This document shows positions 17,900 to 23,134 of a DNA stretch of 39,369 nucleotides, in pieces. The number at the start of each line of letters is the position of its first letter. The first letter of the stretch is position 1. Below the pieces are notes generated by a model. The model did not search any database. It worked only from the letters and a program-made list of their open reading frames with translations, and was not told the origin of the DNA. Source of the stretch: an uncultured Erysipelotrichaceae bacterium (GTDB taxonomy: Bacteria > Bacillota_I > Bacilli_A > RFN20 > CAG-826); NCBI GenBank assembly GCA_902797855.1, contig CADBUI010000010.1:1-39369 (forward strand), written 5' to 3'. A program made the position numbers and the translations under genes.

Positions 17900-18334
17900 C
17901 TATTCTTTCTTGAAATCAAGTAATGCACCTAAGCATTCGAGTGCGCCTGCAACGATTGCAAGAACACCGGTTGCGATAAGTCCACCATTAACGGAATATT
18001 TGCTTACTTCACTTCCGAAATAGAAGTTTGGAAGAAGAAGAACGAATACTCCAGCGGCAATACTTACAAGTGCTGCACCAATAAGAATGAATTTTCTTAC
18101 CTTTAGTGGAAGAAGTCCACAAAGCACAAATAGTGGTGCAAAGCATAGTAAGAAGAAACCGACTATGTTTAAGGCATTAAGATTGTCTCCTTGCCATACA
18201 GCTTGATAGTAGCTAACTCCGACTACAGTGTCACTAGCAACACGTGTAGCGATCGATAAACTAGCAAGACCGAAGGCAATGCCTAATAATACAAGGGAGA
18301 CGAGTCCAAGAATTGGAACTAAAATTCTGCGCAT
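17900..18334 (-). CDS. Four-span membrane protein of unknown function
   Basis: A 144-aa protein with a short basic start (MRR), a first hydrophobic segment (about 4-27), a polar external loop (about 30-52) and three further spans ending in a charged DFKKE. Ala, Val and Leu dominate. AAAGGAG lies 9 nt before ATG. A promoter TTGATT-16-TATAAT is readable upstream on the minus strand, with -10 at 18367-18362. I recognise no family. It stands alone between two plus-strand units. Confidence 0.75.
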   Translation of the reverse strand: MRRILVPILGLVSLVLLGIAFGLASLSIATRVASDTVVGVSYYQAVWQGDNLNALNIVGFFLLCFAPLFVLCGLLPLKVRKFILIGAALVSIAAGVFVLLLPNFYFGSEVSKYSVNGGLIATGVLAIVAGALECLGALLDFKKE

Positions 18335-18417: not shown

Positions 18418-18446
18418 TTGCAACTTAATAAATTATTTATTATATT
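18418..18446 (+). promoter_or_regulatory. Promoter of the rimP-nusA-infB operon
   Basis: TTGCAA (18418-18423), a 17-bp spacer and TATATT (18441-18446). The expected start near 18453 begins an untranslated leader of about 80 nt. Confidence 0.7.
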
Positions 18447-18453
18447 GTTTATG

Positions 18454-18520
18454 CTCAAGTAATTGAGTACTCTTAGTTTTATTACTTAGAGTGGCTAGTT
18501 GGCCACTCTTTGTGTTTTTT
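18454..18520 (+). promoter_or_regulatory. Attenuator-like leader of the rimP-nusA operon
   Basis: Three hairpins are readable. CTCAA-GTAA-TTGAG is at 18454-18467. ACTCTTAG pairs with CTTAGAGT (18469-18476 and 18485-18492, one T-T mismatch). The terminator AGAGTGGC-TAGTTG-GCCACTCT (18488-18509) is followed by TTGTGTTTTTT. The second and third share bases 18488-18492 and cannot coexist, so the layout is antiterminator versus terminator. The U tract is interrupted by two G, as in NusA-dependent terminators. Autoregulation by NusA through such a leader terminator is known in B. subtilis; it is inferred here. Confidence 0.65.
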
Positions 18521-18531
18521 ATGGGGGTTAT

Positions 18532-18990
18532 ATGGTAAGCGATCAAATTAAAGAACTTATTTCTAAAAAGGTTAGTGAACTTGGTTACGACTATCTTGAT
18601 GTTTCCTTTAAAAAGGAAAATGGAACATTAATTCTAAGAATCACAGTTGACAAAGATGATGCGATTTCATTAGAAGATATTGTTAAAGTTAACGAAGTTA
18701 TCTCTCCTATTATTGATGAAGCTGACTTAATTAAAGATAAATACATGCTTGATGTCACTTCTTTAGGAGCGGAAAAACCAATCAAACTAGATAAGTTAGA
18801 AAAATATGTAGATAAATACATCAATATTCACTTACTAAATCCATATAAAGGTGAGAACTATCTAGAAGGAACTCTCTTAGAAGTTAGTGAAAAAGTAATA
18901 GTTATCGAACTAAAAGATAAAGCTAGGAAGTTTAAAGTAAGCATAAATCGAGACAACATTGATAAAGCTCGATTAGCAATAAAATTCTAA
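18532..18990 (+). CDS. rimP: Ribosome maturation factor RimP
   Basis: A 152-aa cytoplasmic protein needed for 30S subunit maturation. The N-terminal alpha/beta domain includes LGYDYLDVSFKKENGTLILRITVDKD and the family run ISLEDIVKVNEVISPIIDEADLIKDKYMLDVTSLGAEKPIK, which matches the RimP signature LEVSSPGldRPL; the C-terminal Sm-like domain follows. Start ATG 18532 follows GGGGG with 4-nt spacing; the upstream in-frame ATG 18499 lies inside the leader terminator hairpin and is rejected. It is first in the operon with nusA 21 nt downstream. Confidence 0.92.
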   Translation: MVSDQIKELISKKVSELGYDYLDVSFKKENGTLILRITVDKDDAISLEDIVKVNEVISPIIDEADLIKDKYMLDVTSLGAEKPIKLDKLEKYVDKYINIHLLNPYKGENYLEGTLLEVSEKVIVIELKDKARKFKVSINRDNIDKARLAIKF

Positions 18991-19011: not shown

Positions 19012-20682
19012 ATGCGTAGAAAAATCAAAGTCGAAGAGCCAAAAATTGACGCCGTGGAATTCATGGCGGCTTTAGACGAGCTTGAAGAAAAGAAAGGTAT
19101 TTCCAAAGCAGATGTTATTGCTGCTCTTAGTGATGCCTTAAAAAGAGCTTATATTAAAGAGCTCGGTGGTGGAGATGATGCTGATGTTAGAGTCACTATC
19201 AGCGATAACCCACCAGAAATCAAAATGTGCAGAGTAAGAAAGATCGTTAAAGATGTCCAAGATGACTATCTTGAAATCTCTCTTGAAGACGCTAGAGAAG
19301 TTAACAAAGATTACGAAATTGGTGATGAATTTGTTGAACCTGTTAGCGTAGAAAAACTAAGAAGACACACTGCTGGCGTTGTTAAATCAGTTTTAAATCA
19401 AAAACTTGCTGAAGCTGAAAAGCAAGTTCTCTACTTATCCTATAAGGATAAAATCGGAGAAATGGTCACAGGTATTGTCGACCGTTGTGATGAACATGGT
19501 TGTTCAGTTAATATCGGTAGAAGCACCGTTTACCTTTCACGTCGTGATTTAATTGGAGACGAAATGTTTGCAACTGGTGATCCAATTAGATTATTTGTTA
19601 GCGATGTTTCCGCTAGTGAAAAAGGTTCAATGGTGCGTTTGTCACGTTCTGATGCCGGATTCTTAAAAAGATTATTTGAAGAGCAAGTCAGAGAAATTTA
19701 CGATGGCTCCGTAATTATCAAAAACATTGCTCGTGATGCTGGAATTCGTTCCAAGATTTCTGTCTACACCAATGATCCAAATATCGATCCTATCGGTGCT
19801 TGTATTGGTATGGGTGGAAAAGCAATCCAATCAATTCTCAACTCCCTTGGTAAAAAATCCCAAGAAAAAGTTGATATCGTTTTATATTCTCCTAATAGTG
19901 CTTTATATATCGTTGATGCACTTCGTCCAGCCCAAGTTCTTTCCATCTATGTTAATGATGAAGAAAAGAAGGCTATCGCGATTGTTGAAAACGGAAAACT
20001 TAGCCTCGCAATTGGTCGTAAAGGCGCCAATGCACGTGTCGCTTGCCATTTAACTGGCTATAACATTGATATTAAAGAAGAAAGCGAAAAAGCTTCTTTA
20101 GAAGCTGAAGGCTATGTCTTCAAAACTATCGATGAACTTAAAGAAGAAGATGAAAAACTTCGTAAGAAAGCTCAATATGATAGCTACCTTGCAAGCATCA
20201 AACTCGCTCGCGCTCAAGAAAGCGTTGTGGAAAGTGGAGTAGAAAAGAGCAAACCTCAACAAATCCTTGATGAAGATATCAAAGAAGAAAAACCAGCTCC
20301 AGAAGCTCCAAAAGCTGAAGAAAAGGTTGAAGAAGTCAAAGAGGTTAAAGAAGAAGTTGTTAAACCCGTCAGTGAACATAAAGAAGTTAAGACTACAACT
20401 ACTTTAGAAGACCTTGAACAATCTCTTGAAAGCGAAAAGAAACGCGAAGCGTTTAAAGCTACCAAGAAGACTTCACGTCGTCCAAAAACAATCACTGATG
20501 ACGAAGTCGCTCATGAACAACCAACTGAAGAAGTTAAGAAAGTTGTTCCTCAAATGGATATTTACACCCAAGAAGAACTTGAGGAACTTGAAAAAGAAGA
20601 ACAAGAATATTCTGATGAATCCTTCGACGATGATATCGATTACGATGATTACGAAGAATATTATGATGACGACGATCGTTAA
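19012..20682 (+). CDS. nusA: Transcription termination/antitermination protein NusA with long acidic tail
   Basis: A 556-aa protein, long for a Gram-positive NusA (usually 350-400). The RNA-polymerase-binding N-terminal domain (1-130) is followed by S1 (about 140-205, starting GEMVTGIVDRC), KH1 with GMGGKAIQ and KH2 with GRKGANAR, ending near 370. Residues about 395-556 are a charged, Glu/Lys then Asp/Glu rich tail ending EEYYDDDDR, with no folded motif. NusA modulates pausing, intrinsic termination and coupling to the ribosome. Acidic tails of this kind occur in mycoplasma NusA, where the protein bridges polymerase and ribosome. It is second in the operon; its level may feed back on the leader terminator. 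Confidence 0.96.
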   Translation: MRRKIKVEEPKIDAVEFMAALDELEEKKGISKADVIAALSDALKRAYIKELGGGDDADVRVTISDNPPEIKMCRVRKIVKDVQDDYLEISLEDAREVNKDYEIGDEFVEPVSVEKLRRHTAGVVKSVLNQKLAEAEKQVLYLSYKDKIGEMVTGIVDRCDEHGCSVNIGRSTVYLSRRDLIGDEMFATGDPIRLFVSDVSASEKGSMVRLSRSDAGFLKRLFEEQVREIYDGSVIIKNIARDAGIRSKISVYTNDPNIDPIGACIGMGGKAIQSILNSLGKKSQEKVDIVLYSPNSALYIVDALRPAQVLSIYVNDEEKKAIAIVENGKLSLAIGRKGANARVACHLTGYNIDIKEESEKASLEAEGYVFKTIDELKEEDEKLRKKAQYDSYLASIKLARAQESVVESGVEKSKPQQILDEDIKEEKPAPEAPKAEEKVEEVKEVKEEVVKPVSEHKEVKTTTTLEDLEQSLESEKKREAFKATKKTSRRPKTITDDEVAHEQPTEEVKKVVPQMDIYTQEELEELEKEEQEYSDESFDDDIDYDDYEEYYDDDDR

Positions 20683-20690
20683 TTAAGTTT

Positions 20691-20951
20691 ATGAAGAAGA
20701 TTTCTTTACGTAAGTGCCTTGTTAAAAAGATTATGCTTCCTAAGGAAGATCTTCTTCGCATCGTCAAAAATAAAGATGGAGAAATTAAAGTTGATCCATC
20801 ATTTGTTCTCCCAGGTAGGGGAGCATACTTATCAAAAGATAAGCAAGTAATTGAAATCGCTAAAAAAAGGAAAGCGCTTGATAGAGCGTTTTCTACTAAA
20901 GTAGACGAGAGTATATATGATGAACTAATTAAGTTAGTAGAAAGAAGGTAA
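20691..20951 (+). CDS. ylxR: YlxR/RnpM family RNA-binding protein
   Basis: An 86-aa basic protein of the DUF448 family. RKCLVKKIMLPKEDLLRIVKN, VDPSF and GRGAYLSKD are the family signature residues. B. subtilis YlxR (RnpM) binds RNase P RNA and modulates it. The CxxC-like zinc or turn region of some members is missing: only one Cys is present. It lies 8 nt after nusA and 3 nt before infB, and no clear ribosome site is seen before ATG 20691, so it may rely on coupling. The YlxQ (L7Ae-like) gene that often follows is absent. Confidence 0.9.
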   Translation: MKKISLRKCLVKKIMLPKEDLLRIVKNKDGEIKVDPSFVLPGRGAYLSKDKQVIEIAKKRKALDRAFSTKVDESIYDELIKLVERR

Positions 20952-20954
20952 ATT

Positions 20955-22778
20955 ATGGCAAAAAATCACGATAATAGAAGAAGTAACATTCCAGCTAATA
21001 ATTCAAGTAAAAAAGAAATGAATAAAGTTAACAATGGTGTCTTTGTTTATAGTGACACTTTAACCTTAGCCGATCTTTCTAAACAACTTAATATTCCTGC
21101 GACCGATATCATCAAATTCTTATTTATGAATAAGAAAATGGTCACAATTAACCAAACGCTTGATGATGAAACCATCGGACTTATTTGTCTTGAATTTGGC
21201 TTTGATTTTAGAAAAGAAAAAGCCGTCAGTGAAGAAAACTTTGAAGAGATGGAAATCGTTGATAAGCCAGAAGATCTTTCTCCTCGCGCTCCAGTGGTTA
21301 CAATCATGGGTCACGTTGACCATGGTAAAACTACATTAATTGATGCGATTAGAAATTCGCACCTTGTCGATAGTGAAGTTGGTGGTATTTCCCAAGCTAT
21401 CGGTGCTTATCAAAAAGAAATTAATGGTCAAAAGATTACATTTCTTGACACTCCAGGGCATGAAGCATTTACCGCTATGCGTTCCCGTGGAGCTTCTGTA
21501 ACCGATATTGTTGTCCTTGTTGTCGCTGCCGATGACGGAGTCATGCCTCAAACAATTGAAGCTATTAATCACGCTAAAGCAGCGGGAGTGCCAATTATCG
21601 TAGCAGTTAATAAAATTGATAAAGATGGTGCTAATCCAGAAAGAATCAGAAATGAACTCATGCAATATGACATAATTCCTGAAGAATATGGTGGAGACAC
21701 AATTTTCTGCGATATTTCTGCTAAAAAGAACATTGGTATTAAAGAATTGCTTGAAGCTATTTTAGTAGTTTCTGAAATGCTTGAACTTAAAGCTAACCCA
21801 AATCGTTATGCGATTGGTACAGTTATCGAAGCTAATCTAGATAAAGGCGAAGGTCCAAAGGCTACTTTACTAGTTCAAAATGGTACCCTTTCATTCCAAG
21901 ACTATGTTGTTGTTGGCTCTGCCTATGGAAAAATTAGACGTATGTCTAACGAACATAAAAAAGTCGTTAAGACTGCTGTTCCATCAACACCTGTTAGTGT
22001 TATTGGACTTAGTGAAGTTCCTAACGCTGGTGATAAATTCATGGCTTTCCCAACCGAAAAGCAAGCTAGAGATATCGCGTTTAAACGTGCTTTAGCGAAG
22101 AAAAATGAGGAACTCGCTGGTAATAGTGCTCGTTCTCTTTCTGATTTATATGACCGAATCCATGAAGGTGAAGTTCAAGAACTCGCCATCATTATTAAAG
22201 CTGACACTAATGGTAGTGCTGAAGCTGTTAAATCAACAGTTGAAAAACTTTCTAACGATCAAGTTAAGATTAAAGTTATTCACTCATCTACAGGTGCTAT
22301 CACTGAAAGTGATATTATGCTCGCAAGTGCTTCAGGAGCAATTATCTATGGCTTTAATGTTCGTCCAAGTGCATTAATTTCTCAAAAAGCTGAACAAGAA
22401 AAGATTGAAATTAGATTACATCGTATTATCTACGATCTTAAAAACGAACTTGAAGACGCTATGAAAGGCATGCTTAAAAAAGAAGAAGTTGAACAAGTTA
22501 CTGGTCAAGCCGAAGTTAGAACTCTCATTCATATTTCGAAAGTTGGTACAGTTGCTGGTAGCTATGTCACTAGTGGAGTTATTAAAGCTGGTGAAAAGAT
22601 TCGCTTACTCCGTAATGGTGTTATCGTTTACGAAGGAAAAATTGCTAGCTTAAAACGCTTTAAAGATGATGCTAGAGAAGTAAAAGAAGGTTTTGAATGT
22701 GGTATCACAATCGAAAACTATAATGACCTTAAAGAATTCGATATTATCGAAGGATATGAAATGGTGGAGAAAGAATAA
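20955..22778 (+). CDS. infB: Translation initiation factor IF-2, short form
   Basis: A 607-aa GTPase that places initiator tRNA on the 30S subunit and promotes subunit joining. A short polar start is followed by the IF2_N helix domain (about 35-90). The G domain has GHVDHGKT (119-126), DTPGH (165-169), NKID (219-222) and SAKK. Domains II, III and IV follow, ending [21 protein letters not shown]. The long, charged N-terminal region of Bacillus or E. coli IF-2 is missing, as in mollicutes. The ribosome site AGAAGG lies in the end of ylxR. It overlaps rbfA by 1 nt (TAATG). Confidence 0.97.
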
Positions 22779-23134
22779 TGGCAGATCGTACACAAAGAAT
22801 TCAGTCTATTATTTCTAAAAACATCTCTGAAATTATTCAGTTTGAGCTTAAAAATCCACGTATCGGATTTTGCACTGTTAGTGAAGTGAATGTTTCAACA
22901 GATTTTTCATATGCAAAAGTTTACGTTACTTTTTTAGGCGCTAAATATCCTAAACAAAATCTTGAAGAACTCAATAAATGTAAAGGATATGTCCGTTCTT
23001 CGCTTGCGAAGAAAATTGATATTCGTAAAACTCCAGAGATCACTTTCTATTTAGATGATACTTATGAAAGAAGTGAACGTCTTGAAGAAGTTCTTCGTAA
23101 AGAACAAGAAAAAATAGATTCACTTAAAAAATAA
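22778..23134 (+). CDS. rbfA: Ribosome-binding factor A
   Basis: A 118-aa KH-fold protein required for late 16S rRNA 5'-end maturation and cold adaptation. Family features: RIQSIISKNISEIIQFELKNPRIGFCTVSEVNVSTDFSYAKVYVTFLG, then IRKTPEITFYLDDTYERSERLEEVL. The length is typical. It is the last gene of the operon, overlapping infB by 1 nt. The convergent ttcA-like gene starts its 3' end 12 nt further on. Confidence 0.95.
   Translation: MADRTQRIQSIISKNISEIIQFELKNPRIGFCTVSEVNVSTDFSYAKVYVTFLGAKYPKQNLEELNKCKGYVRSSLAKKIDIRKTPEITFYLDDTYERSERLEEVLRKEQEKIDSLKK

Follow-up and report, generated by a model that had tools for sequence, protein, structure and literature searches.

What decides whether a transcript that starts ahead of rimP continues into the genes behind it is the question raised by a leader of about 80 nt found in the window, that is, the whole stretch of 39,369 nucleotides from an uncultured Erysipelotrichaceae bacterium that was analyzed here. 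The leader lies between a promoter-like site and the rimP start, and Pfam matches confirmed the gene order rimP-nusA-ylxR-infB-rbfA on the forward strand: rimP at 18532-18990 (PF02576, 5.5e-17; PF17384, 2.1e-12), nusA at 19012-20682 (PF08529, 4.2e-29; PF13184, 2.4e-21), ylxR at 20691-20951 (PF04296, 9e-26), infB, the gene for IF-2, at 20955-22778 (PF11987, 1.1e-39, among other matches) and rbfA at 22778-23134 (PF02033, 9.4e-33). The C-terminal tail of the NusA encoded at 19012-20682 is long and charged and finishes with a run of acidic and tyrosine residues (DDDIDYDDYEEYYDDDDR). On the other side of the leader, a 144-aa ORF on the minus strand (17900-18334), divergent to rimP and without a Pfam match, has its own promoter-like site (18389-18362, minus strand), back to back with that of rimP.

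Leaders of this operon have been described as attenuators in several bacteria. The rimP-leader, named by Naville and Gautheret (2010) and called the most ubiquitous attenuator, has tandem terminators with CCCg..cGGG in Gammaproteobacteria, outside of which no visible antiterminator was noted, and NusA has been proposed as its regulator (PMC2965389). Premature termination 31 nt past the start site was seen by RNA-seq in the leader of S. agalactiae gbs0413 (rimP-nusA-infB), for which NusA feedback was likewise proposed (PMC4448216). Terminators whose U tract is interrupted or whose base pairs are weak are targets of both NusA and NusG in B. subtilis (PMC8060035), where inhibition of the nusA (ylxS) operon by NusA has also been reported (Mondal et al. 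2016, cited in PMC6504816). For the leader in the window, the initial annotation had proposed a terminator in competition with an upstream antiterminator hairpin.

The leader and its terminator

A consensus scan found the promoter-like TTGCAA-17-TATATT at 18418-18446 (forward strand), in a scan whose number of sites is not above that in shuffles, and we infer a transcript start at about 18452-18454. A promoter-like site is present in 49 of the 56 leaders read from the window's family, at a median of 36 nt before the terminator stem; in the window it lies 41 nt ahead of the terminator hairpin. The leader as a whole folds at -29.9 kcal/mol, compared with -15.8 (sd 2.2) for shuffles (z -6.3), and contains three helices, which we call P1, P2, and the terminator. 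P1 (18453-18468, forward strand) is a hairpin of the form GCTCAA-GTAA-TTGAGT in predicted folds, which adjoins P2 and would stand at the very 5′ end of the RNA.

The terminator (18488-18509, forward strand), recognized by folding, by comparison with relatives, and by the covariance model R1 of the family leader, consists of AGAGTGGCT-AGTT-GGCCACTCT with nine pairs, followed by TTTGTGTTTTTT, and its end is 22 nt before the rimP start. A Shine-Dalgarno-like GGGGG (18523-18527, forward strand) is located in between, inside 18522-18528. With model R1, the only convincing match in the genome of the window is the one at rimP (E 2e-7; next 1.1). Among 96 related genomes rimP was located in 92, and nearly all of the leaders read from them carry the terminator. 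Its core is GTGGC..GCCAC in the window and GTGGG..CCCAC, at the same stem position, in many members of the family and the order, from which the window's genus differs by one G-C pair turned round.

The initial annotation regarded the imperfect U tract as the feature that makes this terminator depend on NusA. The tract (18509-18520, forward strand, as read from the sequence) is indeed interrupted, and in 62 of the 64 leaders of the order that were scored the run of T that first follows CACTC has a length of exactly three. As a cue to NusA dependence the evidence is mixed. By the standards of this genome, a tract with eight T in ten positions is not T-poor, and the hairpin ranks at about the 83rd percentile among the terminator-like sites in 405 kb of it. 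With a hairpin this strong and a tract of this T content, the sequence does not reveal whether termination depends on NusA, in spite of the interruption, and both properties argue against a strict dependence.

A competing hairpin and its conservation among relatives

The upstream hairpin P2 (18469-18492, forward strand) pairs ACTCTTAGT (18469-18477) with ACTTAGAGT (18484-18492), where ACTCT (18469-18473) faces AGAGT (18488-18492), followed by one T-T mismatch and then by AGT/ACT. Its overlap with the terminator is exactly the five bases AGAGT (18488-18492), and since these are common to both, the two structures exclude each other, just as the initial annotation had claimed and as the predicted folds confirm. 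Among folds of the RNA without the terminator 3′ arm, P2 has the lowest energy. In the sequence of the window alone it is within chance: for that RNA z is -1.8, with 14 of 200 shuffles equally good, and an anchored P2 search confined to the window sequence gave p 0.11. A broader test, which compared the fold probability of the upstream pairing with shuffles, gave no signal, probably because this short upstream stretch is rich in P1 arms and its shuffles pair equally well.

The significance of P2 comes instead from comparative data, on which we take it as real, because relatives keep it beyond shuffle expectation and with compensatory change. Anchored P2, requiring at least five pairs at the same bases, was found in 42 of the 56 leaders of the window's family, against 3.7 expected from dinucleotide shuffles; a clean P2 is missing from about a quarter of the family leaders. 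A P1-like hairpin of at least 5 bp within 6 nt of P2 accompanies it in 32 of 50 family members (3.1 expected), in as many as 23 distinct sequences, so the P1 sequence is free. In family f5, most of the six members read have a longer, A+T-rich P2. No P2 excess was seen in the other families of the order, yet two g42 leaders (G093 and G094) have the hairpin.

Covariation in related leaders had been named by the initial annotation as a check on its proposal, and compensatory changes were found in several lineages. The P2 strands read ATTTCTTA/TAAGAAGT in G055, where the terminator 3′ arm has changed too, to ACTTCTT; ACTTCTA/TAGGAGT in G007 and G014; ACTCTA/TAGAGT in G029; and ACTTAA/TTAAGT and ACTTAT/ATAAGT in G093 and G094. 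Within f5 they are ATTCC/GGAGT in G085 and GCACTAAAT/GTTTAGGGC in G090, the latter with the terminator arm GGCTCGCCCT, and thus in some lineages all three strands are altered together. MAFFT could not bring the P1 and P2 strands of the family into register, and a covariance-model alignment placed P2 one base off in many rows; covariation was therefore scored by anchored search. When each genus was represented by a single leader, swapped partners beat the true P2 strand pairs in only 17 of 2000 permutations, which is the fair figure, the set that gave 1 in 2000 having held leaders picked after inspection. Family f1 alone gave a weak result (232 of 2000), because the P2 strand hardly varies there.

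Relation to known rimP leaders

The leader resembles the rimP-leader attenuator in its operon, its position, and its type of stem, in which a G-rich 5′ arm and a C-rich 3′ arm precede a U tract, and it differs in that its P1-P2 module competes for the terminator 5′ arm. The general rimP-leader core is GGGc..gCCC, compared with GTGGC..GCCAC in the window. Rfam searches of the window, at the gathering cut-off and at E 10, returned nothing relevant, the rimP model RF01770 (cut-off 47 bits) giving no match; this model stayed below its cut-off in all of 91 genomes, and none of the sub-threshold hits listed is at the rimP leader.

The terminator is widely shared. A stem AAGAGUGGG..CCCACUCUUU (AAGAGTGGG..CCCACTCTT and close variants) follows shortly after the promoter in 66 of the 95 class leaders scored, and the same rimP-leader stem occurs in 27 of 30 leaders from a Bacillus-group order. 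The initial annotation had held that the sequence differs from that of the B. subtilis operon; this does not hold for the terminator, whose stem is the rimP-leader one already known and occurs across the Bacilli. The distribution of P2 is another matter, for the anchored search found it in none of the 66 class leaders with the terminator stem and in only 3 of the 27 from the Bacillus-group order. Between the -10 element and the stem lie a median of 19 nt in the class sample, compared with 31 nt in the Bacillus-group leaders and 36 nt in those of the family, whose longer spacing therefore leaves room for the extra P1-P2 module. The S. agalactiae gbs0413 leader, with its stop 31 nt from the start, is too short for this module. 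The B. subtilis nusA leader is alike in that NusA represses its own operon by termination there, and it would share the terminator logic and lack the antiterminator present in the window. The element as such belongs to a kind already known; what is new is the conserved P1-P2 module, a lineage-specific addition to a published attenuator.

A scan of public genomes for the motif ACTCT..AGAGTGG..CCACTCTTT placed at least 69 of the 81 matches listed ahead of rimP or nusA, in many phyla; the scan demanded the exact motif and hence gives no frequency, for which the class and Bacillus-group samples serve. The matches listed also cover Bacillaceae, Clostridia, Verrucomicrobia, Lentisphaerae, and Armatimonadetes. 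Six loci from the last three groups (L128, L147, L164, L181, L144, and L148) have ACTCT..AGAGTGGG..CCCACTCTTT upstream of nusA, and no rimP match was found downstream of the motif in these six, which suggests that the motif goes with nusA. Two further observations concern other leaders. The small genomes of f11 (L321, L324, L341, L347, and L348) carry a different recurring terminator before rimP, of the type AGCAAGRC..GTCTTGCT. Bacillus-group leaders such as L383 and L395 start with TGGAAATACTAAGAATA or similar; this stretch, lying between the -10 element and the terminator, is conserved in leaders without P2 as well.

A possible mechanism and its alternatives

With moderate confidence we favor the reading that the leader is a transcription attenuator of the rimP-nusA-ylxR-infB-rbfA operon, made of the rimP-leader terminator and a P1-P2 antiterminator in which P2 acts as a kinetic delay and NusA provides the feedback. 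RNA polymerase would start at about 18453, with P1 folding immediately; P2 would form at about nt 40 of the leader and sequester AGAGU; then, as the 3′ arm GCCACUCU emerges, it would nucleate on GGC/GCC and oust the upstream ACUCU. If the displacement is complete before the polymerase has left the interrupted U tract, transcription would stop after about 65-70 nt, and otherwise the operon would be transcribed. Such an order of events was predicted by stepwise folding, in which P1 comes first and P2 appears at leader nt 40-41, to be overtaken by the terminator at nt 57. In full-leader folds the terminator beats P2 by energy, in the window and in most relatives, so that the terminator would be the default and P2, which would not outlast it at equilibrium, could only delay or divert it; the delay would matter because the terminator must be complete while the polymerase is on the U tract. 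A slower polymerase or any help in terminator folding, from NusA foremost and perhaps from NusG, would then increase termination, and we infer that NusA could thereby act as the sensor. Negative feedback of NusA on its own operon is a plausible consequence, one already proposed in print (PMC2965389, PMC4448216).

Attenuation could also work through the terminator alone, as in B. subtilis, with NusA-stimulated termination setting the read-through and P2 being a weak by-product of no regulatory effect. The B. subtilis nusA attenuator studied by Mondal and colleagues is reported to be independent of antiterminator structures. Most leaders of Bacilli place the terminator right after the promoter and have no P2 (the 0 of 66 above, with the 19-nt median spacing), and the folding energies of full leaders point the same way; a by-product, however, requires neither retention in 42 of 56 family leaders nor compensatory change, and we consider this explanation unlikely, though still to be taken seriously. 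A further alternative is a constitutive terminator whose sole task is to shield the operon from transcription arriving from upstream. The hairpin would suit such a task, being a good intrinsic terminator, but the promoter-like site is 41 nt ahead of it and the nearest upstream ORF is on the opposite strand, leaving little to insulate from, and we give the idea hardly any credence.

Other explanations invoke a factor that binds the leader. The RNA ligand of M. tuberculosis NusA contains ACUC, and the upstream ACUC(U) might be bound as a single strand by a protein, for which the KH domains of NusA are one candidate; the pairing of ACUC(U) with AGAGU would then be secondary, and bound NusA would free AGAGU for the terminator. 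ACTC is unusually constant, even in f3 leaders with a changed middle strand (G082 and G086); the finding that it is altered with the pairing kept in G055, G093/G094, G007/G014, and family f5 nevertheless makes this distinctly unlikely. P1-P2 might instead serve as a receptor for a different regulator, be it a ribosomal protein, RimP, or a small molecule, whose binding would stabilize P2 and so cause antitermination, as the resemblance of two stacked hairpins before a terminator to ligand-sensing leaders and the retention of P1 structure in 32 of 50 members could suggest. A P1 with 23 different sequences offers little for a ligand to read, however, and no Rfam match was obtained, and we regard a receptor as very unlikely.

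The attenuator reading has one possible extension. In the full-leader fold the released 18469-18475 pairs with 18522-18528, covering the Shine-Dalgarno-like GGGGG, and more than two expected pairs between the Shine-Dalgarno region and the upstream strand were predicted in 46 of 56 family leaders versus 13 of 24 in other families. We treat this as a lead that is suggestive only, as CU-rich strands in general tend to pair with ribosome sites. The P2 5′ strand ACUCUU might then be a three-way switch: paired with AGAGU, it would leave transcription on and the ribosome site open; released, it would both permit termination and, in read-through RNA, pair with the Shine-Dalgarno region. Although we find this quite unlikely, if true it would mean that the level of NusA jointly controls how much of the operon is transcribed and how much RimP is translated. 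More generally, regulation by the rimP leader had been argued to need no antiterminator, and the family bearing one offers a natural comparison, in which the same terminator and operon occur with and without the competing hairpin; such a comparison can tell NusA sensing through hairpin competition from sensing through the U tract alone.
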